A DNA stretch of 64,000 nucleotides from Stutzerimonas balearica DSM 6083. GTDB lineage: Bacteria > Pseudomonadota > Gammaproteobacteria > Pseudomonadales > Pseudomonadaceae. Under the pieces are notes generated by a model, which worked only from the letters and a program-made list of their open reading frames with translations, was not told the origin of the DNA and did no database searches. The number at the start of each line of letters is the position of its first letter. The stretch's first letter is position 1. Positions 5,023 through 31,948 of this stretch are shown here, piece by piece. Location of the stretch: NCBI RefSeq assembly GCF_000818015.1, contig NZ_CP007511.1:3606501-3670500 (forward strand), in the 5' to 3' direction. A program made the translations under genes and the position numbers.

Positions 5023-5033
5023 TTCTTGTTTTT
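5023..5033 (-). promoter_or_regulatory. Crc/Hfq-type CA motif in the phhR leader
   Basis: Read in the phhR direction the bases are AAAAACAAGAA, which contains two overlapping AAnAAnAA matches (AAAAACAA and AACAAGAA) 11-21 nt upstream of the start codon. AAnAAnAA is the Hfq/Crc target of Pseudomonas catabolite repression. The assignment rests on sequence match and position only. Confidence 0.65.
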
Positions 5034-5052
5034 CGCGGCGGGCCGCTTTTGT

Positions 5053-5070
5053 CGTCAAGAATATTTGACG
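5053..5070. promoter_or_regulatory. Perfect 6-6-6 palindrome, candidate PhhR operator near phhR
   Basis: CGTCAA-N6-TTGACG is a perfect inverted repeat with the same geometry as the TyrR box (TGTAAA-N6-TTTACA). It starts 41 bp upstream of phhR, a position suited to autoregulation. Confidence 0.55.
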
Positions 5071-5114
5071 GCTTCGATGCCCGCCAGCGCCGTTCGTTCT
5101 GCTTTCGCCCGTTG

Positions 5115-5132
5115 CGTAATGATTTTTTTACA
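5115..5132. promoter_or_regulatory. TyrR-box-like PhhR operator for phhA
   Basis: CGTAAT-N6-TTTACA matches the TyrR-box arms TGTAAA-N6-TTTACA at 10 of 12 positions. It lies 135 bp upstream of phhA, consistent with an upstream activator site, and 45 bp from the second palindrome of this divergent region. Confidence 0.65.
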
Positions 5133-5214
5133 AAATGCTCCCCATGCTTGCGGCAAGCTGTCGCAGCCGGGGCTGCCCAAGGCTCCGTTGGCGGGTTCAG
5201 ATGAGGCATCCGAT

Positions 5215-5224
5215 AACAACAACA
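5215..5224 (+). promoter_or_regulatory. Crc/Hfq-type CA motif in the phhA leader
   Basis: AACAACAACA contains AAnAAnAA and lies 44-53 nt upstream of the phhA ATG, farther from the ribosome-binding site than in the other genes of this set. Confidence 0.55.
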
Positions 5225-5267
5225 TTGCCTCACAGACGCGCCTTGCCGCGTCGGGCCAGGAGGTCAG

Positions 5268-6053
5268 ATGAAAACCACGCGATACGTCGCCCGCGAACCG
5301 GACGCCGAGGGCATCATCCATTATCCGGACAGCGAACATGCGGTGTGGAACACCCTCATCGAGCGCCAGCTGAAACTGCTGCCGGGGCGCGCCTGCGACG
5401 AATACCTCGACGGCCTCGACCAGCTCGCCCTGCCCAACGACCGCGTCCCGCAGCTTGGCGAAGTCAACCGCGTGCTCGAACGGACCACCGGCTGGCAGGT
5501 GGCCCGCGTGCCGGCGCTGATTCCCTTCCAGACCTTTTTCGAACTGCTGGCCAGCAAGCGCTTTCCGGTGGCTACCTTCATCCGCACGCCGGAGGAGCTG
5601 GACTACCTGCAGGAGCCGGACATCTTTCACGAGATCTTCGGCCACTGCCCGTTGCTGACCAACCCCTGGTTCGCCGAGTTCACCCACACCTACGGCCAGC
5701 TGGGCCTGGCGGCGAGCAAGGAGGAACGCGTGTACCTGGCGCGGCTGTACTGGATGACCGTGGAATTCGGCCTGGTCGATACCCCGGCCGGCCGGCGCAT
5801 CTACGGCGGCGGCATCCTCTCCTCGCCGAAGGAGACGCTTTACAGCCTGTCCAGCGAACCCGAGCAGCAGGCCTTCGACCCCTTGGAGGCGATGCGCACG
5901 CCGTATCGCATCGATATCCTGCAGCCACTGTATTTCGTCCTGCCGGACCTGCACCGGCTGTTCGAACTGGCCCGCGAGGACATCATGGCGCTGGTCCGGC
6001 AGGCCATGCGCCTGGGCCTGCACCAGCCGAAGTTTCCACCCAAGGCGGCGTAG
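5268..6053 (+). CDS. phhA: Phenylalanine-4-hydroxylase
   Basis: Monomeric-type, non-heme-iron, pterin-dependent enzyme that hydroxylates L-phenylalanine to L-tyrosine. 261 residues is normal for bacterial PAH. The iron ligands are visible as His121 and His126 in HEIFGHCP and Glu166 in YWMTVEFGL. The start follows a strong CAGGAGG-type site (GCCAGGAGGTCAG). It is the first gene of phhABC. The TAG stop is the beginning of a dispersed palindromic repeat that separates it from phhB by 223 bp, so phhB and phhC may be partly uncoupled from phhA. Confidence 0.97.
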   Translation: MKTTRYVAREPDAEGIIHYPDSEHAVWNTLIERQLKLLPGRACDEYLDGLDQLALPNDRVPQLGEVNRVLERTTGWQVARVPALIPFQTFFELLASKRFPVATFIRTPEELDYLQEPDIFHEIFGHCPLLTNPWFAEFTHTYGQLGLAASKEERVYLARLYWMTVEFGLVDTPAGRRIYGGGILSSPKETLYSLSSEPEQQAFDPLEAMRTPYRIDILQPLYFVLPDLHRLFELAREDIMALVRQAMRLGLHQPKFPPKAA

Positions 6054-6214
6054 GGTGGAAAACCGCAAGGCGTTTTCCACGCGCCGGTTCGGCTGCCACC
6101 AAGCAGCAGGTGGATGACGCCGCAAGGCTCATCCACCGACCGCAACCCGATCTATCGACAGCGAGGCGGAGCGAACCCGACGCGTGGACAAGCCTGCGGC
6201 GTTGTCCACCCTAC
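6050..6214. repeat. GTAGGGTGG...CCACCCTAC palindromic repeat between phhA and phhB
   Basis: A 165-bp element that begins with GTAGGGTGGAAAAC at the phhA stop codon and ends in TTGTCCACCCTAC. It holds three hairpins: GTGGAAAAC/GTTTTCCAC, GGTGGATGA/TCATCCACC and GTGGACAA/TTGTCCAC. It belongs to the same family as the copies near 18.5, 20.8, 22.3, 38.7-39.4 and 46.2-46.9 kb. Confidence 0.85.
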
Positions 6215-6276
6215 GGCCTTTCATTCGCCTAGGCTTTCCAATGACCTTCACCCAACAGACCAAAGGGACCGACACC

Positions 6277-6633
6277 ATGACCGCCCTCGCCCAAGCCCAA
6301 TGCGAAGCCTGCCGCGCCGATGCGCCCAAGGTATCCGACGAAGAACTGGCCGAGCTGATCCGCGAGATTCCCGACTGGAACATCGAGGTACGCGGCGACC
6401 ACATGGAGCTGGAACGCGTCTTCCTGTTCCGCACTTTCCGCCACGCCCTGGCCTTCACCAACGCGGTCGGCGCCATCGCCGAGGAAGTCGGCCACCATCC
6501 GGCCCTGCTCACCGAATGGGGCAAGGTCACCGTGACCTGGTGGAGCCACGAGATGCGCGGCCTGCACCGCAACGACTTCATCATGGCCGCGCGCACCGAC
6601 CAGCTCGCCGCCAGCGCCGAGGGCCGCAAGTGA
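6277..6633 (+). CDS. phhB: Pterin-4a-carbinolamine dehydratase
   Basis: 118-residue enzyme that dehydrates the 4a-hydroxytetrahydropterin formed by PhhA, so the cofactor can be reduced again. The family signature is clear: [11 protein letters not shown] followed by VTVTWWSHE. The ATG at 6277 is chosen because it starts at the conserved N-terminus and follows AAAGGGAC; an in-frame start at 6184 lies inside the upstream repeat. The stop overlaps the phhC start as TGATG, which suggests translational coupling. Confidence 0.95.
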
Positions 6634-17719: not shown

Positions 17720-17730
17720 GCGTCACCTGC

Positions 17731-17738
17731 TTGTTTTT
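17731..17738 (-). promoter_or_regulatory. Crc/Hfq-type CA motif of the first NSS gene
   Basis: AAAAACAA (AAnAAnAA) lies 12-19 nt upstream of the ATG and directly before the GCAGGTGAC ribosome-binding region. Confidence 0.6.
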
Positions 17739-17803
17739 ATCTGTGACGGATCGAACCCGCCGCGCTTGTGGCATGGCGGAGTGGCACGCAAGGTTGTGGG
17801 TAG

Positions 17804-18454
17804 TCAGCCAGCGTCGGGTTGCACCTCCGGGGCGGCATGGGTGAATGCCTCCAGCGCCTCGCAGCGAGCAACCCGCGCGAGGATACGTGGATAGGCGTCC
17901 ATTGGGCAGTCGAAACGGCGGGCGTTGTACACCTGCGGCACCAGGCAGGCTTCGAGATAGCCGGGCCGCTGGCCCAGCGACAGCTCGTCACCAAAGGCTT
18001 CCAGCCCCACCTCCACCGACGCCAGGCCCTCGGTGACCCAGTGCCGGTACCAGGCATTCTTCGCCTCGTCGTCGACGCCGAGCTCGCCGGACAGGTACTT
18101 GAGCACGCGCAGGTTGTTCAACGGGTGGATATCGCAGGCGATGTGCATGGCCAGTGCGCGCACCTGGGCGCGGCGCACCGGATCGTCCGGCAGCAGCGCC
18201 GGCACCGGAAACACCTCGTCGAGGTACTCGAGGATCGCCAGCGACTGGGCGATGCGCGCGCCGCCGTTGACCTCGTCGACCAGCAGCGGCACCAGCCTCT
18301 GCGGGTTGAGCGCGCGGTACTCGGCGGCGTGCTGCTGGCCGCCGTCCTTGACCAGATGCACCGGCACCTGGCGATAGGCCAGGCCCTTGAGGTTCAGCGC
18401 GATGCGCACGCGGTAGGCGGCGCTGGAGCGCCAGTAGCCGTAGAGTTTCAACAT
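17804..18454 (-). CDS. maiA: Maleylacetoacetate isomerase (zeta-class GST)
   Basis: 216 residues. Isomerises maleylacetoacetate to fumarylacetoacetate using glutathione, the fifth step of tyrosine breakdown. The zeta-class signature SSAAYRVRIALNLKG gives the Ser-Ser-Cys/Ala active-site region, and the C-terminal helical domain has CDIHPLNNLRVL. It lies 90 bp downstream of fah, separated by a palindromic repeat, in the order hmgA-fah-maiA. Confidence 0.95.
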   Translation of the reverse strand: MLKLYGYWRSSAAYRVRIALNLKGLAYRQVPVHLVKDGGQQHAAEYRALNPQRLVPLLVDEVNGGARIAQSLAILEYLDEVFPVPALLPDDPVRRAQVRALAMHIACDIHPLNNLRVLKYLSGELGVDDEAKNAWYRHWVTEGLASVEVGLEAFGDELSLGQRPGYLEACLVPQVYNARRFDCPMDAYPRILARVARCEALEAFTHAAPEVQPDAG

Positions 18455-18472
18455 GGCGAACCACCCTGAGCC

Positions 18473-18548
18473 GTGGGGTGGAAAGCCGCGCAGCGATCTC
18501 CACCGGCTGCCTGTTCCGCGCGGTGGCTGTGAAGACCCTCCACCCTAG
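18473..18548. repeat. Palindromic repeat overlapping the fah stop codon
   Basis: A degenerate copy of the GTAGGGTGG...CCACCCTAC family: GTGGGGTGGAAAGC at one end and CCACCCTAG at the other, with GGTGGAAAG/TCTCCACC inside. The CTA of the right end is the fah stop codon (TAG on the coding strand). Confidence 0.65.
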
Positions 18549-19528
18549 CCTTCATATTTCTCCACCTGCTGATCGATGGCGCCAAAGATGCTCTGCCCGG
18601 CGGCGTCGAACATCTCGATACGCACCCGGTCGCCGAACTTGAGGAACGGCGTCTTCGCCTCGCCGTGCTCGATGACCTCGAGCATGCGCTTCTCGGCCAG
18701 GCAGGACGAGCCGGCACTGCGATCGTAGTTCGACACCGTGCCCGAGCCGATGATGGTCCCGGCGCCCAGCGGGCGGGTGCGCGCGGCGTGGGCGACCAGG
18801 GTCGGGAAGTTGAAGGTCATGTCGGTGCCGGCATCCGGCTGGCCGAACAGCTCGCCGTTGATGTGCGAAACCAAAGGCCGATGCACCTTGCCGTCGCGCC
18901 AGGTTTCGCCCAGCTCGTCCGGGGTCACCGCCACCGGCGAGAAGCTCGACGAAGGCTTGCTCTGGTAGAAGCCGAAGCCCTTGGCCAGCTCGCCGGGAAT
19001 CAGGTTGCGCAGCGACACGTCGTTGACCAGCATCAGCAGCTGGATGTGCGACGCCGCCTCGGCCGGCGTCGCGCCCATCGGCACGTCGCTGGTGATCACC
19101 GCCAGCTCGCCTTCCAGGTCGATGCCCCAGGCCTCGTCGGCCAGCCGGATCGGGCTGTGCGGCGGGATAAAGGCATCGGCGCCGCCCTGGTACATCAGCG
19201 GGTCGTGCCAGAAGGATTCCGGCATCTCGGCGCCGCGCGCCTTGCGCACCAGCTCGACGTGGTTGACGTAGGCGCTGCCATCGGCCCAGTGATAGGCGCG
19301 CGGCAGCGGGCTGTGGCAGGCGGTCTGGTCGAAGGCGAAGGCGCCCTCCTCCAGCCCGTCGTTGAGGCGCTGGTAGACCGCCTCCAGCTTCGGCTTGCAG
19401 TAGTTCCAGTCATCCAGCGCGGCCTGCAGCGTGGCGGCGATCTGCGGCACTTTCACCGCCTGGGCGAGATCACGGGAGACGACGACGAGCACGCCGTCGC
19501 GGCCCTGGTTGAGGGTTGCGAGTTTCAT
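18545..19528 (-). CDS. fahA: Fumarylacetoacetate hydrolase (short bacterial type)
   Basis: 327 residues, FAH fold. Cleaves fumarylacetoacetate to fumarate and acetoacetate. Motifs include EGELAVIT, the metal-site acidic residues around WGIDLEGE, LLMLVNDVSLRN and GTIIGSGTVSN. It is the short type of about 325 residues, not the 430-residue type common in P. putida. The ATG overlaps the hmgA stop (TGATG), so the two are coupled. The stop codon is provided by a repeat end. The longer in-frame start at 19714 lies inside hmgA and is not used. Confidence 0.93.
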   Translation of the reverse strand: MKLATLNQGRDGVLVVVSRDLAQAVKVPQIAATLQAALDDWNYCKPKLEAVYQRLNDGLEEGAFAFDQTACHSPLPRAYHWADGSAYVNHVELVRKARGAEMPESFWHDPLMYQGGADAFIPPHSPIRLADEAWGIDLEGELAVITSDVPMGATPAEAASHIQLLMLVNDVSLRNLIPGELAKGFGFYQSKPSSSFSPVAVTPDELGETWRDGKVHRPLVSHINGELFGQPDAGTDMTFNFPTLVAHAARTRPLGAGTIIGSGTVSNYDRSAGSSCLAEKRMLEVIEHGEAKTPFLKFGDRVRIEMFDAAGQSIFGAIDQQVEKYEG

Positions 19529-20667
19529 CAGGATTCCTTGCCCGGCGCACGCCAGGAGTTGACGTATTCGGGGACATCGACGGCTGCAGCGGCCTCGCCG
19601 ACCTCCAGCGCGCGGCGGGTGTCGATCATCACCGCCACCTCGTCGGCAAAGGTCGCCGGGTCGGTGCTGGCCTTCTTCAGCGCCTTCGGGTGCGGCCCGT
19701 GGGGGAAGCCGCAAGGGTGGAAGGTCACCATGCCCTGCTCGATGTTGTCGCGGCTGAAGAAGTTGCCGCGGTGGTAGAACAGCACTTCGTCGTAGTCGTC
19801 GTTGTTATGGAAGAACGGCACCTTCAGCGCACCCGGATCGGATTCCACCGGCCGCGGGGTGAAGGTGCAGACCACGAAACCGTTGGCGACGAAGGTGGTG
19901 TGCGCCGACGGCGGCAGGTGGTAGCGATGGCTCATCAGCGGGCGGATGTCGCGCCAGTTGAGCCGTACCACGGTGTTGTCGCCGTGCCAGCCGACCACGT
20001 CCAGCGGGTTGTACGGGTAGGTCACGGTGGTGATCTGGTCTCGCCGCTTGATGCGGATCTGCCAGGGGTTCTCGTCCTGCTGCGCGCGGAAGGCGTCGTC
20101 CAGCCGCGGATGGTCGAGCACCGCGGCGTCGAAGATGGCGTGCGGGCCGACCAGGCCTTTTTCCGGCAGCTGGTAGGCGCCGTCGGTGTTCTCGATCAAC
20201 AGCATGAACACCGGCTGCGTCGCCTCGATGCGCCAGGCGGTGCCGCGCGGGATCATCAGGTAGTCGCCGTCGCGGAATTCCAGGTGGCCGAAGTCGCAGT
20301 ACAGATGCCCGGCGCCCTCGTGAATGAACAAGAGCTCGTCACCGTCGCCGTTGCGCACCAGATGACGCATGGCGCCGTTGGTCTTCCACAGGCGCAGCTT
20401 GACGTCGGCATTGTGCAGCGCCAGCGGCGCCTGCAGCGGGCAGTCGCCTTCGCTGGGGATCTGATTGAAGTTGAAGGCGTGCGGACGCAGAGGCCCTTCC
20501 CAGTCGATCCAGCCGGTCGGCGGATGCTTGTGATGCAGGTGCGAAGCCGGGCCGAAGAAGCCTTCCCGGCCCATTTCGCGCTCGTAGGTGCCCTGCGGAA
20601 AATCGCAGTGCGCCTGACGCGAACTCTCACCCTCGCGGATGGGGAAACTGATCCATTTGCGGCTCAT
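19528..20667 (-). CDS. hmgA: Homogentisate 1,2-dioxygenase (short type)
   Basis: 379-residue cupin that opens the homogentisate ring to maleylacetoacetate. Iron ligands are expected in the C-terminal barrel around PFFHNNDDYDEVLFYHRG (a Glu and a His) and in FHPCGFPHGPH. It begins MSRKWISFPIREGE after a good CGAGGAGAG site; the in-frame ATG at 20769 is inside a repeat. The length is that of the short bacterial group, matching the short Fah next door. It lies 198 bp from hppD across a palindromic repeat, so it may have its own promoter. No CA motif is seen. Confidence 0.93.
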   Translation of the reverse strand: MSRKWISFPIREGESSRQAHCDFPQGTYEREMGREGFFGPASHLHHKHPPTGWIDWEGPLRPHAFNFNQIPSEGDCPLQAPLALHNADVKLRLWKTNGAMRHLVRNGDGDELLFIHEGAGHLYCDFGHLEFRDGDYLMIPRGTAWRIEATQPVFMLLIENTDGAYQLPEKGLVGPHAIFDAAVLDHPRLDDAFRAQQDENPWQIRIKRRDQITTVTYPYNPLDVVGWHGDNTVVRLNWRDIRPLMSHRYHLPPSAHTTFVANGFVVCTFTPRPVESDPGALKVPFFHNNDDYDEVLFYHRGNFFSRDNIEQGMVTFHPCGFPHGPHPKALKKASTDPATFADEVAVMIDTRRALEVGEAAAAVDVPEYVNSWRAPGKES

Positions 20668-20865: not shown

Positions 20866-21951
20866 TTACTCGCCCGCCTTGATCACGCCGCGGCGCACCT
20901 GGTCTTCCTCGATGGATTCGAACAGCGCCTTGAAGTTGCCTTCACCGAAGCCCTGGTTGCCCTTGCGCTGGATGATCTCGAAGAAGATCGGGCCGATCAC
21001 CGTGTTGGTGAAGATCTGCAGGAGGATGCCGTCATCCCCCGGCGCGCCGTCGATCAGCAGGTTCAGCTCGCGTAGCTGGTCGAGCGGCTCGCCGTGGCCG
21101 GCGACGCGGGTATCGACCTTCTCGTAGTAGGTCGCGGGGGTTGTCATGAAATCCACGCCGTTGCCACGCAGGCGGCGCACGGTCTCGTAGATGTCGTCGG
21201 TGGACAGCGCGATGTGCTGGATGCCCTCGCCGTGGTATTCGCGGATGAATTCCTCGATCTGCGATTTGTCGTCGGCCGACTCGTTGATCGGGATGCGGAT
21301 CTTGCCGCAGGGCGCGGTCATGGCACGGGAGAACAGACCGGTCAGCTTGCCTTCGATGTCGAAGTAGCGAATCTCGCGGAAGTTGGCGATGCGCTCGTAG
21401 AAACCGGACCAGACATCCATCTGCCCGCGCTTGACGTTGTGGGTCAGGTGATCGATGCACATCAGGCCGACGGCGTTGTCGTTCGGCGTACGGCCTTCGA
21501 TGTACTCGAAGTCGACGTCGTAGATGCTCTTGTCGCCGTAGCGGTCGACGAGATACAGCAGCGAGCCGCCGATGCCTTCGACGCAGGGGATGTTCAGCTC
21601 GCCGAAGTTGGCGTGGCTGCCGACCAGCTTGGCGCCCTGGGATTCGACGTAGGCGGCGGCCTGCGCGGCATTCTTCACCCGGAAGGCCATGGCGCAGGCG
21701 CTCGGGCCGTGCTTCTCGCCGAACTCGCGCACATGCCCGGTGGGGCTGCCGTTGAGCACGATGTTGATGTCGTGCTGCTGGAACAGCCAGACCTCCTTGG
21801 AACGGTGCTTGGCGGTTTCGGTAAAGCCCATTTGGGTGAACAGCGTGCGCAGCTGCTCGATGCCTTCGGCATTCGGCGCGGTGAATTCGACGAACTCGAA
21901 GCCGTCTGTGCCGATGGGGTTGTGCTGTTCGATCTTGGTCACGGCGTTCAT
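20866..21951 (-). CDS. hppD: 4-hydroxyphenylpyruvate dioxygenase
   Basis: 361 residues, two vicinal-oxygen-chelate modules. Converts 4-hydroxyphenylpyruvate to homogentisate. The facial iron triad is visible in CIDHLTHNVKRG (His), GIQHIALSTDD (His) and FFEIIQRKGNQGFG (Glu). The C-terminal gating helix is present. An AACAAGAA Crc-type motif sits directly before the AGGAGGCG ribosome-binding site, and a perfect 7-bp hairpin lies just beyond it. Transcription runs towards hmgA. Confidence 0.97.
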   Translation of the reverse strand: MNAVTKIEQHNPIGTDGFEFVEFTAPNAEGIEQLRTLFTQMGFTETAKHRSKEVWLFQQHDINIVLNGSPTGHVREFGEKHGPSACAMAFRVKNAAQAAAYVESQGAKLVGSHANFGELNIPCVEGIGGSLLYLVDRYGDKSIYDVDFEYIEGRTPNDNAVGLMCIDHLTHNVKRGQMDVWSGFYERIANFREIRYFDIEGKLTGLFSRAMTAPCGKIRIPINESADDKSQIEEFIREYHGEGIQHIALSTDDIYETVRRLRGNGVDFMTTPATYYEKVDTRVAGHGEPLDQLRELNLLIDGAPGDDGILLQIFTNTVIGPIFFEIIQRKGNQGFGEGNFKALFESIEEDQVRRGVIKAGE

Positions 21952-21963: not shown

Positions 21964-21971
21964 TTCTTGTT
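21964..21971 (-). promoter_or_regulatory. Crc/Hfq-type CA motif of hppD
   Basis: AACAAGAA lies 13-20 nt upstream of the ATG and touches the ribosome-binding site (CCAGGAGGCGAG). Confidence 0.7.
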
Positions 21972-22433: not shown

Positions 22434-23843
22434 TCAGACGAGCCCGATGAGGTTGAGAAAGACCAGCACGATGGCCACCGGGGTGCCGTAGCGCAGCAGG
22501 TTCCACCAGAGGCTGAACCAGCCCGGCCGGCCGATGCCGACCGCCTCATGGACCAGCTCGCGGCGCAGCACCCAGCCGGTGAACAGCACGGTACCCAGCC
22601 CGCCGAGCGGCATCAGCCAGTTGGCCGTGAGGTAGTCCATGGTGTCGAACACCGTGCGGCCGAACAGCTGGTACTCGGCCCAGTGGTTGAACGACAGCAG
22701 GCAGGCCGTGCCCAGCAGCGCGAGCAGCGAACCGGTGAGCAGCACCGCGCGGCCACGGCGGATGCCGAAGCGCTCGGTCAGCCAGGCAATGCCCGGCTCG
22801 GACAGCGAGATCGTCGAGGTCACCGCGGCGAGCACCAGCATGACGAAGAACAGCCCGCCGACCAGCTGGCCGAGCGGCATCTGGCCAAAGGCGATCGGCA
22901 GGGTGACGAAGATCAGCCCCGGCCCGGCGCCGGGCTCCAGGCCGTTGGCGAACACCAGCGGGAAGATCGCCAGGCCGGCCAGCAGCGCGACCACGGTGTC
23001 GGCCAGCGCCACCAGCAGCGAGGTGCGCGCGATGGAGGTGCCCTCCGGCAGGTAGGAGCCGTAGGCCATCATCGCGCCGCAACCCAGGCTCAGGGTGAAG
23101 AACGCATGGCCCAGGGCAAGCAGCACACCCTTGGCGCTCAGCTGAGAGAAATCCGGCACGAACAGAAAGCGCAGCGCGGCGGCGAAATCGCCAGCCACCG
23201 CGGCATAGCCGACCAGCCCCAGCAGCAGCACGAACAGCCCGGGCATCAGCAGGCGCAGCGCGCGCTCCAGCCCGTCGCGCACGCCGAGGCCGACGATCAG
23301 CAGGGTCGCCGCGAGCACCGCCAGGCCGTAAAGCGCGAGCCGGCCGGGGTCGGCGAGCAGCCCTTCGAACAGTGCGCCGCTGGCCTGGCCGTCGACGCCG
23401 CTGAAGGCACCGCTCAGCGCCGTCGGCACATAGGCCAGCGCCCAGCCGGCCACCACCAGATAGAAGCCGAGGATCAGGAAGCCGGTGAAGGCGCCGAGCC
23501 AGCCGACCTTGCGCCAGTGCGGGCTGGCCCCGGCTTCGCGCGCCAGGCGGCCCATGGCGCCGGCCGGATTCTGCCGCCCACGGCGGCCGATCATGACTTC
23601 GGCCATCAGCAGCGGTATGCCGATGGTCAGGATGCAGGCGATGTAGACCAGCACGAAGGCACCGCCGCCGTTGGCGCCGGTGATATAGGGGAATTTCCAG
23701 ATGTTGCCCAGGCCCACGGCCGAGCCGGTGGCGGCGAGAAAGAACACCCAGCGCGAGGACCAGAGGCCACGGCTGGAGGCGGAACGGGCAGTTGCGGACG
23801 CGCCGGCGAAGCTGCCGGCAGTGAGGCGGGACGGTTCGGTCAT
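22434..23843 (-). CDS. Sodium-dependent amino-acid transporter, NSS family (second copy)
   Basis: 469 residues, about 11-12 TM segments, with the same TM1 signature GSAVGLGNIWKFPY and the GRRGRQNP loop as the copy at 16-17.7 kb. It is clearly a paralogue rather than a recent duplicate, since many positions differ. It lies just downstream of the Leu/Phe-type dehydrogenase and indolepyruvate oxidoreductase genes, so its substrate may be an aromatic or branched-chain amino acid. The leader has a double Crc-type motif next to GCAGGAAAC. Confidence 0.9.
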   Translation of the reverse strand: MTEPSRLTAGSFAGASATARSASSRGLWSSRWVFFLAATGSAVGLGNIWKFPYITGANGGGAFVLVYIACILTIGIPLLMAEVMIGRRGRQNPAGAMGRLAREAGASPHWRKVGWLGAFTGFLILGFYLVVAGWALAYVPTALSGAFSGVDGQASGALFEGLLADPGRLALYGLAVLAATLLIVGLGVRDGLERALRLLMPGLFVLLLGLVGYAAVAGDFAAALRFLFVPDFSQLSAKGVLLALGHAFFTLSLGCGAMMAYGSYLPEGTSIARTSLLVALADTVVALLAGLAIFPLVFANGLEPGAGPGLIFVTLPIAFGQMPLGQLVGGLFFVMLVLAAVTSTISLSEPGIAWLTERFGIRRGRAVLLTGSLLALLGTACLLSFNHWAEYQLFGRTVFDTMDYLTANWLMPLGGLGTVLFTGWVLRRELVHEAVGIGRPGWFSLWWNLLRYGTPVAIVLVFLNLIGLV

Positions 23844-23856
23844 TGCGGTTTCCTGC

Positions 23857-23869
23857 TTGTTGTTCTTGT
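23857..23869 (-). promoter_or_regulatory. Crc/Hfq-type CA motif of the second NSS gene
   Basis: ACAAGAACAACAA in the gene direction has overlapping AAnAAnAA matches (AAGAACAA, AACAACAA), 14-26 nt upstream of the ATG. Confidence 0.7.
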
Positions 23870-23893
23870 CAGGTCGGGCGAAGTGACGGAAGT

Positions 23894-23920: not shown

Positions 23921-25006
23921 TCAGGCGTGCAAGCGCAGGGCCTCCGGCTGGCTGCCGCTGTCGAGCCGCTCGAGTGCCAGGCGGTCGGCGATCACCGAGG
24001 TCGGCTCGCCGCTGGCGGCGGCACGGGTGAAGATCTGCTGCAGGGTGTCACCAATGGCGCGCACATGGCCGTCTATCTGCGCGGCACTGCCGCCGATGCG
24101 CTGGTAGTAGACGTCGATGATGCCGCCGGCATTGATCGCGTAGTCCGGGGCGTACAGCTGGTTGCGGCGCTGCAGCTCGGCGCCGACCTGCGGCGTGGCC
24201 AGCTGGTTGTTCGCCGCCCCGGCGATCACCGGCGCGCGCAGCACCTCGAGGGTCTGCTCGTTGAGGATCGCACCCATGGCGCAGGGCGCGAAGACGTCCA
24301 CGTCCAGGCCGTAGATGTCCTGCGGGCGCACCACCTGGGCGCCCAGCTCGTCCATCGCCTGCTTGACGTTGGCATCGAAGATGTCGGCCACCCACAGCTC
24401 GGCGCCCGCGGCTTTCAGATGCCGCGCCAGACCCAGGCCGACATGCCCAACGCCCTGGATCGCCACTTTCAACCCGCCGAGGTCGTCACGCCCGAGCCGG
24501 TGGCGCACCGCTGCCTTGAGCCCGACGAAGACGCCCAGCGCCGTGGATGGCGACGGGTCGCCGCTGGTGATGCTGCCGTCGAGGGTCGCGCGCGGCGTGG
24601 CGCCGACCACATGGCGGGTGCGCTGGGCGAAGGCCTGCATTTCGGCATCGCCGGTGCCCGAATCGGCGGCGGTGATGTAGCGCCCGCCGAGGCTGTCGAC
24701 GAAGTCGCCCATGGCGTGTAGCAGCGCCTGGCTCTTGCCAGTATGCGGGTCGCCGATGATCACCGCCTTGCCGCCGCCGAGCTTGAGCCCGGCCAGCGAG
24801 GATTTCAGCGTCATCCCGCGCGACAGCCGCAGCACATCGCGCAGGGCCTCGTCGTCACTGGCGTAGGGGAACATCCGGCAGCCACCCAGCGCCGGCCCGA
24901 GGCGCGTGTCGTGGATGGCGATGATGGCCTTGAGCCCCGAAACCTGGTCATGGCAGAAGACCACCTGCTCGTGGCGGTCGAAGTCAGGATGAGCGAAGAC
25001 GGACAT
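23921..25006 (-). CDS. Leucine/phenylalanine-type amino acid dehydrogenase
   Basis: 361 residues of the Glu/Leu/Phe/Val dehydrogenase family; NAD-dependent oxidative deamination of an amino acid to its 2-oxo acid. The catalytic lysine region is GLKLGGGKAVI, and the Rossmann glycines are in AIQGVGHVGLG. The start MSVFAHPDFDRHE follows ACGAGGTAAC; a longer in-frame ATG at 25072 would put the CA motif inside the coding region. Together with the oxidoreductase next to it, it could feed aromatic or branched keto acids into acyl-CoA. Substrate choice is not settled by sequence. Confidence 0.88.
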   Translation of the reverse strand: MSVFAHPDFDRHEQVVFCHDQVSGLKAIIAIHDTRLGPALGGCRMFPYASDDEALRDVLRLSRGMTLKSSLAGLKLGGGKAVIIGDPHTGKSQALLHAMGDFVDSLGGRYITAADSGTGDAEMQAFAQRTRHVVGATPRATLDGSITSGDPSPSTALGVFVGLKAAVRHRLGRDDLGGLKVAIQGVGHVGLGLARHLKAAGAELWVADIFDANVKQAMDELGAQVVRPQDIYGLDVDVFAPCAMGAILNEQTLEVLRAPVIAGAANNQLATPQVGAELQRRNQLYAPDYAINAGGIIDVYYQRIGGSAAQIDGHVRAIGDTLQQIFTRAAASGEPTSVIADRLALERLDSGSQPEALRLHA

Positions 25007-25019: not shown

Positions 25020-25027
25020 TTCTTGTT
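25020..25027 (-). promoter_or_regulatory. Crc/Hfq-type CA motif of the amino-acid dehydrogenase
   Basis: AACAAGAA, 14-21 nt upstream of the ATG at 25006 and directly before the CGAGGTAA ribosome-binding site. Its position supports that start. Confidence 0.68.
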
Positions 25028-25144
25028 GGTCTGGCGCCCTGCCATGGGCAGGGCCTGCTTGTTCGGTATCACCGGGCGATGGGCCCGGCGGGTTCATCTG
25101 GCCCTGGGCGAACAGGGTGACGGGCCGCTGCTGCGTGCCCTGCC

Positions 25145-25205: not shown

Positions 25206-28200
25206 TCAGGCCGCCGGCTGGAACAGCCGCACGCTCTGCACCTCGTCGCCCTTGGCCAGCTGCTCGCGGAGCAACTTTTCCTGCTGGCGGGCCTTGGCGA
25301 TGGCGCGTTCCTTCACCGGGCCGTAGCCACGGATCAGCTCCGGCAGCGCGGCGATGGCCACGGCGGTGCGGTAGTTGCTCGGCTTGAGCTGGGCCAGCAG
25401 CTCGTCCACGGTCTTCTCGTATTCGCTGATCAGCTGGCGTTCGACGCGACGGTCGTGGCCATAGCCGAACGGGTCCAGCGGCGTGCCACGCAGGAAGCGC
25501 AGCTTGGCCAGCACACCGAAGGCGTTGAGCATCCAGGGGCCGAACTCGCGCTTGCGTGGCTCGCCAGTGACGGGGTCACGCTTGGCCAGCCAGGCCGGAG
25601 CCAGGTGGAACTGCAGCTTGTAGTCGCCCTCGAACTGCGCCTCGAGCTGCTGGCGGAAGTCCGGCTCGCTGTAGAGGCGTGCGACCTCGTACTCGTCCTT
25701 GTAGGCCAGCAGCTTGAAGTAGTAGCGCGCGACGGCCTTGGACAGCGCCAGATCGTCCGCCGTATCGGCATCGCGCACGCGCTCGACCAGCTGGCGATAG
25801 CGGCGCGCCAGCCCGGCGTTCTGGTAGCGGGTAAGGAAGTCCACGCGCCACTCGACGATCTCTTCCAGGGTTTTACAGAGTGGTTCGGCGACCTCGACTG
25901 GGCGCGCCAGACCTTCCACCGCTTCGCGCTCTAGCACCGCACGGCGGCCCCAGCGGAAGGCCTGCAGATTCAGCTTGGCGGCAACGCCATTGAGTTCGAT
26001 GGCTTTCTCGATGGCCTCGGCGCTGATCGGCAGCAGCCCCTGCTGATAGGCGAAGCCGAGCAGGAACAGGTTGGTGGCGATGCTGTCGCCCAACAGCCGG
26101 GTGGCCAGGCGGGTGGCGTCGACGAAGTGGGTCTTCTCCGCGCCGACCGCGTCGCTGATCGCCTGGCGCATGGCCGCGCCGGGCACCTGGGCATCCGGGT
26201 TGCGGGTGAACTCGGCGGTGGCCGATTCGTGGCTGTTCACCACGGCATTGCTGATCTGCTCATTGAGCCGGGTCAGCGACTCGTCACCGGCCGCCACCAC
26301 CAGGTCGCAGCCGAGCAGCAGGTCGGCTTCACCGGCGGCGATGCGCACCGCGTAGATGTCGCTCTGCTTCGCAGCGATGCGCACGTGAGTGGTCACCGGG
26401 CCGAATTTCTGCGCCAGGCCGGCCTGGTCGAGCACGGTGCAGCCCTTGCCTTCCAGGTGCGCGGCCATGCCGAGCAGCGCGCCGAGGGTGGTCACGCCGC
26501 TGCCGCCGACGCCGGGGATCAGCACGTTCCACGGCCGCTCCAGCGACGGATGCTGCGGCTCGGGCAGCGCGCCGGCCTCGATGCCATGGCCGACCGCCTC
26601 GGGCTTGCGCAACCCGCCGCCATGCACGGTGACAAAGCTCGGGCAGAAGCCTTCGACGCAGGAGTAGTCCTTGTTGCAGGCGTTCTGGTCGATCTCGCGC
26701 TTGCGCCCCAGCTCGGTTTCCTTCGGCAGCACCGACAGGCAGTTGGACTTCTCGCCGCAGTCGCCGCAGCCCTCGCATACCGCAGCATTGATGAATACGC
26801 GCTTGGCCGGGTCTTCCAGCTTGCCGCGCTTGCGCCGGCGGCGCTTCTCGGTGGCGCAGGTCTGGTCGTAGATGATCACCGAGACGCCCTTGAATTCGCG
26901 CAGCTCGCGCTGCACGGCGTCCAGTTCGCGGCGATGGTGGAAAGTGGTGATCGGCGCGAAGCCGTCGCGGCTCGGGTACTTGTCCGGCTCGTCGCTGACC
27001 AGGGCGATGCGCCGGACGCCCTCGTCGGCGATCTGCCGGCTGAGCTGGTCGACGCGCAGTTCGCCGTCGATCGGCTGGCCGCCGGTCATCGCCACGGCGT
27101 CGTTGTAGAGCACCTTGTAGGTGATGTTGACGCCCGCCGCCACGGCGGCGCGGATCGCCAGGCTGCCGGAGTGGAAGTAGGTGCCGTCGCCGAGGTTCTG
27201 GAACATGTGCGGGGTGTCGGTGAACGGCGCCTGGCCGATCCAGTTGACGCCCTCGCCGCCCATCTGGGTGAAGGTCTCGGTGCGCCGGTCCATCCACTGC
27301 ACCATGTAGTGGCAGCCGATGCCGGCCGAGGCGCGGCTGCCCTCGGGCACCTTGGTGGAGGTGTTGTGCGGGCAGCCGGAGCAGTAGTGCGGGGTGCGCA
27401 CGGTGCTGTAGCTGCGCGCGGCCAGGGCCTTTTCCTTGGCGGCCAGGAAGGCCAGGCGGGTCTGGATGCTGTCGCTGGTGTAGATCGGCGCGAGGCGCTT
27501 GGCGATCACCCGGGCGATCATCGCCGGGGTCAGCTCGGAGAGGTTCGGCAGCAATGAATTGCCCTGCTCGTCGAATTCGCCGACCACCCGCGGACGCTTG
27601 CTGACGGGCCAGTTGTAGAGCTGTCCGGTGAGCTGGTCCTCGATGATGCTGCGCTTCTCCTCGACCACCAGAATCTCGTCCAGCCCCTGGGCGAACTCGT
27701 GCACCGAGACCGGCTCCAGCGGCCAGCTCATGCCGACCTTGAGCACCCGCAGGCCGACCGAGGCGCACAGCGCTTCGTCCAGGCCCAGGTCATCCAGCGC
27801 CTGCCGCACGTCGAGATAGGACTTGCCGGTGGTGATGATGCCAAGGCGCGGGTTCGGCGAATCGAGCATCACCCGGTTCAGGTTGTTGGCCCGGGCGAAG
27901 GCGCGTGCGGCGTAGATCTTGTACAGGTTGAGGCGCTTTTCCTGAGCCAGCGGCGGGTCCGGCCAGCGGATGTGCACGCCGTCCTCGGGCAGCTCGAAAT
28001 CGTCCGGGATGCGCGTCTGCACGCGCAGCGGGTCGACTTCCACCACGGCGGAGGAATCGACATTTTCAGCGATGGTCTTCAGCGCCACCCAGCAACCGGA
28101 GTAGCGCGACAGCTCCCAGCCGATGATGCCGTAGTCGAGGATTTCCTGGACGTTGGCCGGATTCAGCACCGGAATCGAGGCGGCGATGAAGGCATGCTCG

Positions 28201-28676
28201 CTCTGGTGCGGCAGCGTCGAGGATTTGCAGCCGTGATCGTCACCCGCCAGCAGCAGCACGCCGCCATGCGGGGAGACACCCGCCGCATTCGCATGCTTGA
28301 ACACGTCGCCGGCACGGTCGACGCCCGGCCCCTTGCCGTACCACATGGCGAACACGCCGTCGTACCGGGCGCCGGGGAACAGGTTGGCCTGCTGGCTGCC
28401 CCACACCGCGGTGGCGGCCAGCTCTTCGTTGACGCCCGGCTGGAAGTGGATGGCGTGTTGCTTGAGGTAGTCGCGGGCTTCCCAGAGGCTCTTGTCCAGC
28501 CCGCCCAGGGGCGAGCCGCGATAGCCGGAAATGAAGCCGCCGGTGTTCAGGCCACGCGCCTGGTCGCGCTGATGCTGGAGCATCGGCAGACGGGTCAGGG
28601 CCTGGGTACCGGTGAGGTACAGGTGCCCGGTGGCAAGGCGGTACTTGTCGTCCAGACGGATCTCGGCCAGAGACAT
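25206..28676 (-). CDS. Indolepyruvate ferredoxin oxidoreductase family protein (fused alpha/beta/gamma type)
   Basis: 1156-residue fused 2-oxoacid oxidoreductase, cytoplasmic. Oxidatively decarboxylates aryl-pyruvates (indolepyruvate, phenylpyruvate) or related keto acids to acyl-CoA with ferredoxin. Visible parts are the N-terminal PFOR-like domain (GFISGYRGSPLGGLD), the TPP domain (CSGCPHNTSTKVPEGS, then MGGEGVNWIGQAP), Fe-S cysteines (CEGCGDCGEKSNC and CNKDYSCVEGFCPS), and the C-terminal gamma part (GVGGSGVTTLGALLGMAA). The start MSLAEIRLDDKY follows TTAGGAGCG with a CA motif just upstream. It is divergent from the Lrp/AsnC regulator. Confidence 0.93.
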   Translation of the reverse strand: MSLAEIRLDDKYRLATGHLYLTGTQALTRLPMLQHQRDQARGLNTGGFISGYRGSPLGGLDKSLWEARDYLKQHAIHFQPGVNEELAATAVWGSQQANLFPGARYDGVFAMWYGKGPGVDRAGDVFKHANAAGVSPHGGVLLLAGDDHGCKSSTLPHQSEHAFIAASIPVLNPANVQEILDYGIIGWELSRYSGCWVALKTIAENVDSSAVVEVDPLRVQTRIPDDFELPEDGVHIRWPDPPLAQEKRLNLYKIYAARAFARANNLNRVMLDSPNPRLGIITTGKSYLDVRQALDDLGLDEALCASVGLRVLKVGMSWPLEPVSVHEFAQGLDEILVVEEKRSIIEDQLTGQLYNWPVSKRPRVVGEFDEQGNSLLPNLSELTPAMIARVIAKRLAPIYTSDSIQTRLAFLAAKEKALAARSYSTVRTPHYCSGCPHNTSTKVPEGSRASAGIGCHYMVQWMDRRTETFTQMGGEGVNWIGQAPFTDTPHMFQNLGDGTYFHSGSLAIRAAVAAGVNITYKVLYNDAVAMTGGQPIDGELRVDQLSRQIADEGVRRIALVSDEPDKYPSRDGFAPITTFHHRRELDAVQRELREFKGVSVIIYDQTCATEKRRRRKRGKLEDPAKRVFINAAVCEGCGDCGEKSNCLSVLPKETELGRKREIDQNACNKDYSCVEGFCPSFVTVHGGGLRKPEAVGHGIEAGALPEPQHPSLERPWNVLIPGVGGSGVTTLGALLGMAAHLEGKGCTVLDQAGLAQKFGPVTTHVRIAAKQSDIYAVRIAAGEADLLLGCDLVVAAGDESLTRLNEQISNAVVNSHESATAEFTRNPDAQVPGAAMRQAISDAVGAEKTHFVDATRLATRLLGDSIATNLFLLGFAYQQGLLPISAEAIEKAIELNGVAAKLNLQAFRWGRRAVLEREAVEGLARPVEVAEPLCKTLEEIVEWRVDFLTRYQNAGLARRYRQLVERVRDADTADDLALSKAVARYYFKLLAYKDEYEVARLYSEPDFRQQLEAQFEGDYKLQFHLAPAWLAKRDPVTGEPRKREFGPWMLNAFGVLAKLRFLRGTPLDPFGYGHDRRVERQLISEYEKTVDELLAQLKPSNYRTAVAIAALPELIRGYGPVKERAIAKARQQEKLLREQLAKGDEVQSVRLFQPAA

Positions 28677-28690
28677 GGGGCGCTCCTAAT

Positions 28691-28698
28691 TTGTTGTT
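28691..28698 (-). promoter_or_regulatory. Crc/Hfq-type CA motif of the oxidoreductase gene
   Basis: AACAACAA, 15-22 nt upstream of the ATG, next to the TTAGGAGCG ribosome-binding site. Confidence 0.7.
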
Positions 28699-28804
28699 AT
28701 CGGAGTCAGGGTGGTCGCGTTCGGCGCCACCCGCCTTTTTCGCGGCAGGGGATCGCCCCGCCGGCACGTGATTACAGTCTGGCCGTGACGAGGGGAGATT
28801 TTCT

Positions 28805-28854: not shown

Positions 28855-28862
28855 AACAACAA
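28855..28862 (+). promoter_or_regulatory. Crc/Hfq-type CA motif of the Lrp/AsnC gene
   Basis: AACAACAA, 14-21 nt upstream of the ATG at 28876. Confidence 0.6.
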
Positions 28863-28875
28863 AACTGGAATGAAC

Positions 28876-29343
28876 ATGCAGACCCCGCTGAGCACCGTCG
28901 ACCGCAAGATCCTCCGCCTGCTGCAACACAACGCCGACCTGTCGGCCGCCGAGATCGCCGAAAAGGTCGAGCTCTCGCAGTCGCCCTGCTGGCGACGCAT
29001 CCACCGCATGCAGGAAGAAGGGCTGATCGAGCGCAAGGTCGCCCTGCTCAACCCGAAGAAGCTCGGGCTGGACATGACGGTGTTCGTCAACATCAAGCTC
29101 TCGGCCCATGGGCGCAGCAACCTCGACGAATTCGAGCAGGCCGTGGTCGGCTACCCCGAGGTGCTCGAATGCCACACCATGGCCGGCGAGTCGGACTACC
29201 TGCTCAAGGTGGTGGCGCGCGATATCGACAGCTACGAGCGCTTCCTGCGCGACCAGCTACTGCAGCGCCCACACGTGCAGGAAGCGCACTCGCACATCGC
29301 CATGAGCGAGGTGAAGCGGACCACGGAGCTGCCGCTGGATTGA
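28876..29343 (+). CDS. Lrp/AsnC-family transcriptional regulator
   Basis: 155 residues: an N-terminal HTH (LSAAEIAEKVELSQSPCWRR) and a C-terminal RAM domain (HTMAGESDYLLKVVARDI), the amino-acid-sensing part. It is divergent from the indolepyruvate oxidoreductase gene and probably controls it in response to an amino acid, as BkdR-like regulators do for branched keto-acid genes. The start at 28876 is preferred because CTGGAA sits 6 nt before it. An ATG at 28870 leaves no spacer, and an in-frame TTG at 28834 would read through the CA motif. Confidence 0.9.
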   Translation: MQTPLSTVDRKILRLLQHNADLSAAEIAEKVELSQSPCWRRIHRMQEEGLIERKVALLNPKKLGLDMTVFVNIKLSAHGRSNLDEFEQAVVGYPEVLECHTMAGESDYLLKVVARDIDSYERFLRDQLLQRPHVQEAHSHIAMSEVKRTTELPLD

Positions 29344-29491
29344 GCGGCCGCTGCCGCTTGTAGGAAAGATTTAAGGTCCCGGCCCTGCCGGTCGATATTA
29401 CGGGCGATGCCTATCGCCCCAGGCAGCCCCTTCGACGCCCCACCCTTCCATTGCCCATCGGCAGCCTTCCTACTGCCGGGAGTTCCAGAGC

Positions 29492-31402
29492 ATGCTCGCC
29501 AATATCCGCATCGGACAGCGCATCGCGATCAGTATCGTGCTGCTGCTGATCGTCACCGTCACGACCCTGACCGCCCTGTTCTTCAGCCGCTTCGAAAGCC
29601 TGCTGGCCGACGCCGAGCGCCGCGAGCTGCGCGGCATCTTCGACAACGTCAGCACCACCATCGCCGCCGAAAGCCTCACCGCCGAGCGCCTCGCCGCCCT
29701 GGTGGCGAACATCCCCGAGGTGCAGCAGGCGATGGCCGACGATGACCGTGAACGACTCTCGGCGCTGTTCGTGCCGGGCTATGCGAAGCTGGCGAACGAC
29801 TATGGCCTGACCCAGTTCCAGTTCCACAAGGCACCGGCCACCTCCTTCCTGCGCGTGCACAAGCCGGCGCAGTTCGGTGACGACCTTTCCGCGATCCGCC
29901 AGACCATCGTCGACACCAACGCCCGCCAGACGCCGGTGCGGGGTGTCGAGTCCGGCGTCGCCGGCCTGGGCATTCGCGGCCTCGTGCCGATCAGCCATCA
30001 GGGCCGGCCGGTTGGCTCGGTGGAGTTCGGCCTGTCCTTGGGCCAGGCGTTCTTCGACGCCTTCAAGGCGCGCTACCACGTCGACGTCGGCCTGGTGCTG
30101 CGCGAGGCCAGCGGCAGCTTCAAGCCCTTCGCCACCACATTTGGCAGCCCCCTGGTCAGCGATGAGCAGCGCGGCCAGGCGCTCGCCGGCAATGACGTGA
30201 TCTTCCAGGCCGAGGCCGACGGCCAGCCGGTGGCGGTTCTGGTATCGGCGGTCGAGGACTTCTCCGGCAAGCCGCTGGGCGTGCTGGAAGTGGCGATGGA
30301 CCGCACCCGCTACGCCGACGCACTGGCCTCGATGCGCAACACCGCACTGGTCGTCGCCGGCATCGCGCTGGCCATCGGCCTGCTGGTCGCGGCCCTGGTG
30401 GCGCGCGGCATCGTCAGCCCGATCCGGGTCGCGGTCGATGCGATGCGCGATATCGCCGCCGGCGAAGGCGACCTCACTCGGCGCTTGGAACAGCGCGGGC
30501 GCAACGAGGTAGCCGAGCTGGCCGGTGCCTTCAACCTGTTCGTCGAGAAGGTGCGCCGGCTGGTCAGCGAGGTGGCCGGCTCGACGACGCAAGTGGCCGC
30601 CGCGGCCGAGGAGATGTCGGCGATCACCGACGAGTTCAACCGCGACGTCGCACAACAGCGCCACGAGATCGAGCTGGTGGCCACGGCAATGAACGAGATG
30701 ACCGCCACCGTGCAGGACGTCGCGCGTAACGCCGCACTGGCGGCCGAATCGGCCCAGGCCGCCGATGAGCAGGCCCAGCAGGGCCAGCAGGTGGTGCAGC
30801 AGACGGTCAGCTCGATCGAAAACGTCTCGGCCGAGGTCGAGCGTACCGCTGCCGCCATCCAGCGGCTGGAGGCCGACAGCCAGAGCATCAGCGCCGTGCT
30901 GGACGTGATCCGCGGCGTCGCCGAGCAGACCAACCTGCTGGCGCTGAACGCTGCCATCGAGGCGGCGCGGGCTGGCGAACAGGGCCGCGGCTTCGCCGTG
31001 GTGGCCGACGAGGTTCGCACGCTCGCCTCGCGCACCCAGCAGTCGACGGTGGAAATCCAGCAGGTGATCGAGCAGCTGCAGGCCGGCGCGCGCGACTCCG
31101 CCGCGGTGATGCTGCGGGGCCGTGCCCAGGTCGAGGTCAGCGTGCGCCAGGCCCAGCAGGCCGGTGACTCGCTGAGCGGCATCACTGGCGCGGTCACCCG
31201 CATCAGCGACATGAACACCCAGATCGCCAGCGCCGCCGAGCAGCAGAGCGCGGTGGCTGACGAAATCAGCCAGAACGTGGTGAACATCAATCAGGTGGCC
31301 GATCGCGTCACCGAATCGGCCGGCCAGACCGCGCAGGCCAGCAGCCAGCTCGCGCATCTCGCGGTGGGCCTGCAAACGCTGGTCGGGCAGTTCCGCTACT
31401 GA
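29492..31402 (+). CDS. Methyl-accepting chemotaxis protein with double-Cache-like sensor
   Basis: 636 residues: TM1 at about 11-32, a periplasmic region (about 33-284) of the dCache_3-like type with [17 protein letters not shown] and a [14 protein letters not shown] segment, TM2 at about 287-309, HAMP with [11 protein letters not shown], and a signalling hairpin ([20 protein letters not shown]). No amino-acid-type RxxWY motif is present, so its ligand differs from the receptor at 14-16 kb and is unknown. GGGAG precedes the ATG. It is a single-gene unit. Confidence 0.9.
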
Positions 31403-31408
31403 GCGGCG

Positions 31409-31428
31409 GCGCCGGCGCGAGCCGGCGC
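31409..31428. terminator. Bidirectional hairpin between chemoreceptor and DUF192 genes
   Basis: GCGCCGGC-GCGA-GCCGGCGC, a perfect 8-bp stem with a tetraloop between two convergent stops. No T-run on either side. Confidence 0.5.
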
Positions 31429-31856
31429 TAGTCCGCAGGCAATCCCTCCACCCGTGCGCCCGGGCCGATGGCGTGCTCGGCGAACCAGCCCTGGTTCACC
31501 TCCAGCGCATAACGCGCCGGCGCTTGCGAGCAGCGGATCTCGGTGCTCAGCGGCTCGAGGTCGATCAGATCGACGATCCGCCCGGCGTCGTCGATGAACG
31601 CCGCCGACAGCGGCAACGGCGTGTTCTTCATCCACAGGCAATGGCGCCCGGGGCGCTCGAAGCGCAGCAGCATGCCGGCGTCGGCCGGCAGCTCGGTGCG
31701 CGCCATCAGCCCGCGGGCGCGCTCGAGGTCGCTGGCAGCCAGCTCCACCCGCAGCGTTTCCCCACCGATGCGCAGCGCCAGGCGGTCCTGCGCCAGCGCG
31801 GGCGGCAGCTCCCAGAGCAGAGCGGTCGAGACGATCAGCCAAGCCAGTGCGCGCAT
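31428..31856 (-). CDS. DUF192 family exported protein
   Basis: 142 residues from MRALAWLIVSTALLW, a signal peptide probably ending near ALAQ. The DUF192 core is present, with RARGLMARTELP, the CLWMKNTPLPLSAAFID strand, and the C-terminal EVNQGWFAEHAIGPGARV. The family's function is not established. The start at 31856 gives the signal peptide directly; an in-frame ATG at 31904 would add 16 polar residues. It lies between the chemoreceptor and the atoE-type gene and shares no obvious function with either. Confidence 0.82.
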   Translation of the reverse strand: MRALAWLIVSTALLWELPPALAQDRLALRIGGETLRVELAASDLERARGLMARTELPADAGMLLRFERPGRHCLWMKNTPLPLSAAFIDDAGRIVDLIDLEPLSTEIRCSQAPARYALEVNQGWFAEHAIGPGARVEGLPAD

Positions 31857-31937
31857 GCCATGAACCTTTGACGAACCCGGGGAACGGCGATCCTCGCGCC
31901 GCACTCAATAACCGAAGCGGGCACGCCCGCCATGGAC

Positions 31938-31948
31938 AAGAACAACAA
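31938..31948 (+). promoter_or_regulatory. Crc/Hfq-type CA motif of the atoE-type gene
   Basis: AAGAACAACAA holds two AAnAAnAA matches, 15-25 nt upstream of the ATG and right before ACGAGGACC. Short-chain fatty-acid use is a plausible Crc target. Confidence 0.68.

Follow-up and report, generated by a model that had tools for sequence, protein, structure and literature searches.

We analysed a 64,000-nucleotide stretch of the Stutzerimonas balearica DSM 6083 genome (contig NZ_CP007511.1, positions 3,606,501 to 3,670,500; hereafter the window, whose own numbering is used throughout), in which nine genes carry in their leaders the A-rich motif AAnAAnAA, the known Hfq/Crc target of Pseudomonas. 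Pfam and NCBIfam were used to verify the gene names, and motif positions are given relative to the start codon. On the minus strand, the leader of phhR (3441-5012) holds AAAAACAAGAA at 5023..5033, which comprises two overlapping motifs starting at -21 and -18. The neighbouring phhA (5268-6053, plus strand) has AACAACAA at 5215..5222, starting at -53. Five further sites lie on the minus strand: AAAAACAA at 17731..17738 before the symporter gene NSS1 (16259-17719; start -19), AACAAGAA at 21964..21971 before hppD (20866-21951; start -20), AAGAACAACAA at 23857..23867 before the second symporter gene NSS2 (22434-23843; two overlapping motifs, starts -24 and -21), AACAAGAA at 25020..25027 before a Glu/Leu/Phe/Val-type dehydrogenase gene (DH; 23921-25006, ATG at 25006; start -21), and AACAACAA at 28691..28698 before a gene of the indolepyruvate oxidoreductase family (IOR; 25206-28676; start -22). 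On the plus strand, AACAACAA at 28855..28862 precedes an Lrp/AsnC gene ending at 29343, at -21 or -15 depending on whether the ATG at 28876 or that at 28870 is used, and AAGAACAACAA at 31938..31948 precedes atoE (31963-33303; two overlapping motifs, starts -25 and -22). All nine genes thus carry AAnAAnAA within -70..+16 of the start codon. The maiA, fah-like and hmgA-like genes (17804..20667, minus strand) have no motif and are not targets by the motif test. A preliminary description of the window, made from its sequence, had reported the motif before these nine genes and its absence from the hmgA, fah and maiA leaders, and both observations were reproduced.

The products of phhA, hppD and maiA scored above the cut-offs of their models, and HppD shares 98-99% identity with the HppD proteins of Stutzerimonas stutzeri BAL361 and 24a13 and of S. 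kunmingensis. The phhR product is TyrR-like and has the TyrR/PhhR helix-turn-helix, with a score below the TyrR cut-off. NSS1 and NSS2 are SNF-family symporters, DH belongs to the ELFV family (the ScyB model was nearest, with a score below its cut-off), IOR exceeded the PRK13029 cut-off, and atoE matched SCFA_trans. The fah-like gene encodes an FAA hydrolase recognized by Pfam FAA hydrolase domains only, and the hmgA-like gene matched TIGR01015 weakly, at 85 bits where the cut-off is 511. The two latter genes (18545-20667, minus strand) are far from the classical models, which suggests a homogentisate branch of divergent type.

The window contained 13 matches to AANAANAA, compared with 2.1 expected from dinucleotide shuffles. 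Twelve of them fell within 5023-31948 and made nine clusters, one before each named gene, and the thirteenth was at position 50450 within a large open reading frame. Both strands of the whole genome held 1033 matches per 4.38 Mb, or about 15 per 64 kb. Because the 13 matches in the window are close to this genome average, the raw count was rejected as evidence; what is unusual is the position of the motifs, not their number. To obtain background leaders (-60..-1), a simple gene finder was applied to 800 kb (18% of the genome), taken as 40 stretches of 20 kb at even spacing. With automatic starts, the motif was present in 19/706 background leaders and in 7/26 leaders of the region 3.4-33.4 kb (Fisher P = 1.3e-5), and the same procedure found it in 0/30 leaders of the rest of the window. 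A fairer background, restricted to genes preceded by 50 nt or more of intergenic DNA, gave 19/458 leaders (4.1%). After this first count, the starts of DH and Lrp were changed by hand and one spurious 50-amino-acid open reading frame was removed, upon which 9 of the 25 leaders in the region carried the motif (P = 6e-8). In the 13-gene core at 16.2-33.4 kb, seven leaders had it (binomial P = 1.5e-8 for a background of 2.7%); since the region was picked by eye, this value was multiplied by an assumed 4000 positions, giving about 6e-5. The densest of the 40 sample stretches had three motif leaders in 20 kb. Equal frequency of the motif before random genes, proposed in the preliminary description as a refutation, was not found in the 18% sample, and the enrichment stands. 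By extrapolation, the 2.7% rate corresponds to roughly 100 motif-bearing genes genome-wide.

The form of the motif was also specific. Among 15 six-A patterns with fixed ends, AA.AA.AA ranked first in the leaders of the sample, with 19 against 8 for the runner-up, and in the region, with 7 against 2. C occupied 23 of the 46 free positions of the sample leaders, compared with 112/358 across the whole sample. An A at -2 relative to the motif was found in 18 of the 28 leader motifs of the window and sample against 30/138 motifs elsewhere, and GAY stood directly before the motif in 10/28 against 8/138, hinting at an Hfq footprint longer than eight bases. In 8/9 leaders the motif was predicted to be unpaired (0.93-0.99), the value for DH being 0.69. 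As had been described, the motif lies next to the ribosome-binding site in eight of the nine leaders, the exception being phhA, where it lies 45 nt before the start.

We then compared leaders of same-genus orthologs, counting strict motifs within -70..+16 of the start codon. Each denominator counts the leaders that could be read among the 30 best loci of the search in question, with the genome itself included, and is therefore biased to close relatives. The strict motif was kept in 30/30 NSS1, 30/30 IOR, 25/25 NSS2, 28/30 Lrp, 25/26 hppD, 25/27 phhA, and 23/30 DH leaders, whereas the genome background for this comparison was 4.0% (19% with one mismatch). For atoE and phhR it was kept much less often, in 14/29 and 7/30 leaders, respectively, with shuffled leaders giving 2.6/29 and 1.9/30. 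When up to one mismatch was allowed, the counts rose to 29/29 and 26/30, so degenerate sites at these two genes may persist in relatives. The site is conserved among relatives for seven genes (23/30 or better) and weakly so for atoE and phhR. The hmgA leaders never had the motif (0/17) and the maiA leaders seldom did (2/28; 1/30 in a second count of relatives), so that the lack of a site before hmgA, fah and maiA was confirmed in the window and nearly always in relatives too. Among leaders with a strict motif, the motif was more conserved than its surroundings for phhA (identity 0.98 versus 0.39-0.49) and DH (0.87 versus 0.34-0.54). The phhA site occurred at -53, -41/-40 or -34/-33 in different relatives, and the block -29..-2 of NSS1 was nearly invariant save for the n positions (32 leaders with the motif at -19).

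The trans-acting parts are present in this genome. Hfq is encoded, and a 259-amino-acid protein matched P. aeruginosa Crc chains (E 1e-163), with gene neighbours that by eye resemble rph and pyrE. Two CrcZ-family RNAs (RF01675) exceeded the cut-off of 95 bits, with scores of 257 and 250, and contain 11 and 14 motif starts, overlapping ones included; the genes on either side of one of these RNAs resemble cbrB and pcnB by eye. We also looked for CrcZ and Crc in 26 genomes of the 80 hppD loci. CrcZ was found in 10/10 Pseudomonadaceae and in 0/16 other genomes, and Crc identity was 74-95% in the tested Pseudomonadaceae, compared with at most 48% for the best Crc-like protein in the others. The hppD leader had a strict motif in 22/37 Pseudomonadaceae and in 6/42 others (P = 3e-5; shuffled expectation 0.4 and 2.2), the NSS1 leader in 17/18 and 2/16 (P = 1e-6), and the phhA leader in 4/5 and 1/18. 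It was absent from phhR (0/5 and 0/18) and hmgA (0/25 and 0/23), and for fah the counts were 0/25 in Pseudomonadaceae versus 3/25 in others. In these counts, a locus labelled Pseudotabrizicola (L073), which has both hppD and NSS1 motifs, was excluded from both groups, and a locus labelled only Gammaproteobacteria (L066) was counted as Pseudomonadaceae; because a single NSS gene may count under both NSS names at hppD-anchored loci, only the NSS1 row was used.

Altogether, the position, form specificity and conservation of the motif, the finding of Hfq, Crc and a pair of CrcZ-type RNAs in the genome, and the rarity of the motif before hppD and NSS1 outside the Pseudomonadaceae argue that the nine motifs are very probably Hfq-Crc translational repressor sites for carbon catabolite repression, here predicted from sequence, and form a dense patch of a genome-wide regulon. 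Several results weigh against this interpretation. Of the 16 genomes that lack CrcZ, seven hold a Crc-like protein with 40-48% identity; 15 of the 37 Pseudomonadaceae hppD leaders have no motif, and six of the 42 leaders outside the family have one. The strict motif was missing from all five phhR leaders and all three atoE leaders of more distant Pseudomonadaceae, which adds to the low same-genus counts of these two genes, and the surroundings of the Lrp motif are conserved as well as the motif itself. In addition, hmgA was raised in a P. putida crc mutant (PMC3003667), so the exemption of hmgA may fail at the output level; this rise was perhaps indirect, or perhaps concerned a different hmgA. 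Of the nine genes, phhR and atoE have the weakest case. The preliminary description had further regarded the genes as a nine-gene regulon repressed as one unit, and this part was not borne out. The motif is also carried by 19 of the 706 leaders sampled elsewhere, phhR and atoE keep it less often than the others, and phhR and hppD are far apart in several relatives (0.96 versus 3.82 Mb in genome G007 and 3.80 versus 0.82 Mb in G010), while they are close together in others, such as G029.

Three other explanations were weighed against Hfq-Crc repression. The preliminary reader might simply have picked a run of genes that are preceded by A-rich octamers through chance; the raw count in the window is indeed only the genome average, and the region was chosen after the fact. 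The position of the motifs keeps a probability of about 6e-5 after correction for the choice of place, however, and ortholog conservation refutes chance for most sites, with phhR and partly atoE excepted; chance is thus extremely improbable as the general explanation. Open A-rich stretches beside the Shine-Dalgarno sequence could instead aid ribosome loading without Hfq or Crc, in agreement with the predicted unpaired state of the motif in eight of nine leaders and with its place adjoining the ribosome-binding site in as many. Such an enhancer is hard to reconcile with the preference for the AA.AA.AA spacing over other six-A patterns, with the variation of conserved sites at the n positions (NSS1), or with a phhA site that is kept in 25/27 leaders although it is 45 nt from the start. 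Moreover, hppD and NSS1 orthologs outside the Pseudomonadaceae mostly do not have the motif even though their leaders are richer in A+T, and we consider this explanation quite unlikely.

The motif is also a general site for the distal face of Hfq, and in P. stutzeri A1501 AANAANAA is over-represented in Hfq eCLIP peaks (PMC11332353). Hfq might therefore bind these leaders for pairing with other small RNAs or for mRNA stability, in which case Crc and catabolite repression would matter little. Against this, the genes are catabolic, the orthologs phhA and PhhR are reported Crc targets, and CrcZ and CrcY carry the same motif; a role of Hfq apart from Crc is accordingly judged unlikely.

The Hfq-Crc interpretation agrees with published systems. 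In P. aeruginosa, phhA was shown to be Crc controlled by a translational fusion, the one such demonstration met for these genes, and PhhR appears to be Crc repressed (PMC6235884), and the predicted core Crc regulon includes phhA (Browne et al. 2010, PMC3003667). That prediction used a motif window of -70 to +16 and listed 84-215 candidates per species. It is alike in the motif rule and in having phhA in the core list; it differs in that Stutzerimonas was not included and in that its counts demand conservation among strains, whereas our counts are a sample of one genome. The terms "atoE," "short-chain," and "indolepyruvate" are absent from the main text of that paper. The locus resembles the Pseudomonas Hfq/Crc system (amiE, estA, rbsB, alkS, benR, and phhA, with CrcZ/CrcY as antagonists) in the motif, its near-start position, catabolic targets and local regulators as targets, and in the presence of Hfq, Crc, and CrcZ/CrcY. 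NSS1, NSS2, IOR, DH, this Lrp and atoE were not met as named Crc targets in the passages of the literature examined; supplementary target lists were outside the scope, so their novelty is unproven. The 19 motif genes of the background sample include a zwf-like glucose-6-phosphate dehydrogenase, an OprD porin, a tannase, a TonB receptor, a zinc alcohol dehydrogenase, a PQQ dehydrogenase, an AMP-binding (acyl-CoA-synthetase-like) enzyme, urease gamma, and MdcG, as well as an AraC regulator beside a ring-hydroxylating dioxygenase, which is benR/benA-like by position. Published Crc targets include zwf, benR, and amiE. The 19 genes further comprise GGDEF/EAL proteins, a pseudouridine synthase, and two thioesterases, and some members of this latter set may be false positives.

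In addition to the motif, the leaders of IOR, NSS1, and NSS2 showed possible structure. The IOR leader RNA (28671..28741, minus strand) can be drawn as a 5' hairpin followed by a CTCC/GGAG stem that pairs the Shine-Dalgarno sequence and holds the motif in its loop. In the 5' hairpin, six of the eight pairs change on both sides, with 29 compensatory cells compared with 9.5 in shuffled and 2-8 in slid controls, for a structure drawn from one row of the alignment used to test it. The CTCC/GGAG helix was invariant in 20/20 distinct leaders, and in the leader of the window itself the best-scoring stem was an alternative, CCTGA/TTAGG. The IOR leaders of two more distant loci (L067 and L085) differ and by eye can be drawn alike as CGCTC..GAGCG. 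A covariance model of the IOR leader was run over 927 kb. Apart from the IOR leaders of the window and of locus L052, its top matches were the window hppD (E 0.012), the IOR of L067 (E 0.13) and the window NSS1 (E 0.35), each of them weak, and it did not report the IOR of L085. In the NSS1 leader (17721..17748, minus strand), the arms CGTCAC (17743-17748) and GTGACG (17721-17726) enclose the motif and the Shine-Dalgarno sequence and are nearly invariant, without covariation. The arms CCTG (23870-23873) and CAGG (23852-23855) stand on either side of the NSS2 motif on the same strand, and the arms of both symporter leaders are retained while their flanks diverge. The motif stems of all three leaders are short, with conserved arms and no covariation. 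No Rfam family matched the window at the gathering cut-off, and two weak matches near the IOR leader were of unrelated families.

Stem scores were compared with 5' and 3' shuffles in each gene family, counting leaders with a score of at least 10. All leaders reached this score for NSS1 (17/17, versus 8.5 and 8.2 in 5' and 3' shuffles), NSS2 (30/30, versus 10.8 and 12.8), and IOR (26/26, versus 12.0 and 9.6), the NSS rows overlapping in that 2 of the 17 NSS1 rows are NSS2-like and 9 of the 30 NSS2 rows are NSS1-like. The corresponding values were 16/29 for phhA (15.7 and 9.5), 23/39 for hppD (19.4 and 22.0), 5/23 for DH (2.9 and 5.2), 1/23 for Lrp (5.2 and 5.6), 5/14 for atoE (2.9 and 3.2), and 5/7 for phhR (3.7 and 4.2). 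As a general trait, structure was rejected in both forms tried. A GC-rich hairpin immediately 5' to the motif was not distinctive (region mean of -13.9 kcal/mol versus -13.2 kcal/mol in 676 nonmotif leaders, P = 0.27), and a stem around the motif reached score 8 in 12/28 motif leaders, compared with 57% of 677 nonmotif leaders and 14.0/28 with shuffled flanks. When only the nine leaders of the region were considered, eight reached stem score 8 (4.7 shuffled, P = 0.013) and five reached score 10 (3.5 shuffled, P = 0.24). On gapped leader alignments, RNAalifold gave no structure for phhR, phhA, atoE, or DH, structures for NSS2 and hppD that are probably gap artefacts in part, and a value near the column-shuffled mean for Lrp; the nontarget hmgA was well below its column-shuffled mean too, without compensatory cells. 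A GC-rich hairpin was seen just 5' of the DH motif (25027-25055, minus strand), and several relatives (L189-L218) have a hairpin of different sequence there.

A tentative reading of the three conserved leaders makes the motif an apical loop of about 14-16 nt, closed by a short conserved stem that either encloses the Shine-Dalgarno sequence or pairs it. A loop this large might fit around the ring-shaped distal face of Hfq; Hfq/Crc would then clamp a ribosome-hiding hairpin shut, as an Hfq-gated RNA switch, rather than bind an open leader. We regard this as possible but rather doubtful. RsmA/CsrA sites are similar in that the protein site lies in a hairpin loop at the ribosome-binding site (PMC8266614), as it seems to in IOR, NSS1, and NSS2, but the motif in their loop over the Shine-Dalgarno sequence is GGA and not AAnAAnAA. 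The cryo-EM study of amiE, estA, and rbsB calls the role of leader structure unclear (PMC9890229), and hairpins in the Hfq papers examined are mainly proximal-side Hfq contacts or features of amiE. A Shine-Dalgarno clamp with an Hfq motif in its loop was not met in these papers, and no wider absence is claimed. If true, this loop reading would show how leader structure and Hfq/Crc cooperate.

Scans for other signals added little. Sigma-54-like sites numbered 30 (36 expected), a sigma-70-like scan of 16.0-32.1 kb found none, and 14 terminator-like sequences were found compared with 7.2 expected, a scan that does not settle operon limits. Outside the motif region, a gene at 36209-37789 (plus strand) scored above the PRK04350 and TIGR02645 cut-offs, which place it in the archaeal-type thymidine phosphorylase family.

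In published work, ARN repeats are the ligand of the distal face of Hfq, in a complex that Crc stabilizes and that keeps the ribosome off (PMC9890229 and PMC8266614); abstracts in the literature state that CrcZ titrates Hfq. By analogy, when a preferred carbon source is present, Hfq would grip the AAN/ARN repeats beside the ribosome-binding sites of these genes, or 45 nt before the start in phhA, and Crc would stabilize the Hfq-mRNA complex, resulting in poor translation. The predicted targets comprise uptake (NSS1, NSS2, and atoE), first enzymes (phhA, hppD, DH, and IOR), and local regulators (phhR and Lrp). Once the preferred carbon source is exhausted, CrcZ and CrcY would titrate Hfq and repression would be lifted. 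The hmgA, fah, and maiA genes, which lack a site, are probably cotranscribed with hppD and follow its control. NSS1, the last gene in the same direction as these three, has its own site; entry would thus be gated while homogentisate clearance stays available. The mechanism itself is already known, and several of the targets are perhaps new. For Stutzerimonas, the analysis supports a set of likely Hfq/Crc targets in which uptake, first enzymes and local regulators are tagged but hmgA, fah, and maiA, whose products clear homogentisate, are not, a pattern that would keep a reactive intermediate from accumulating.

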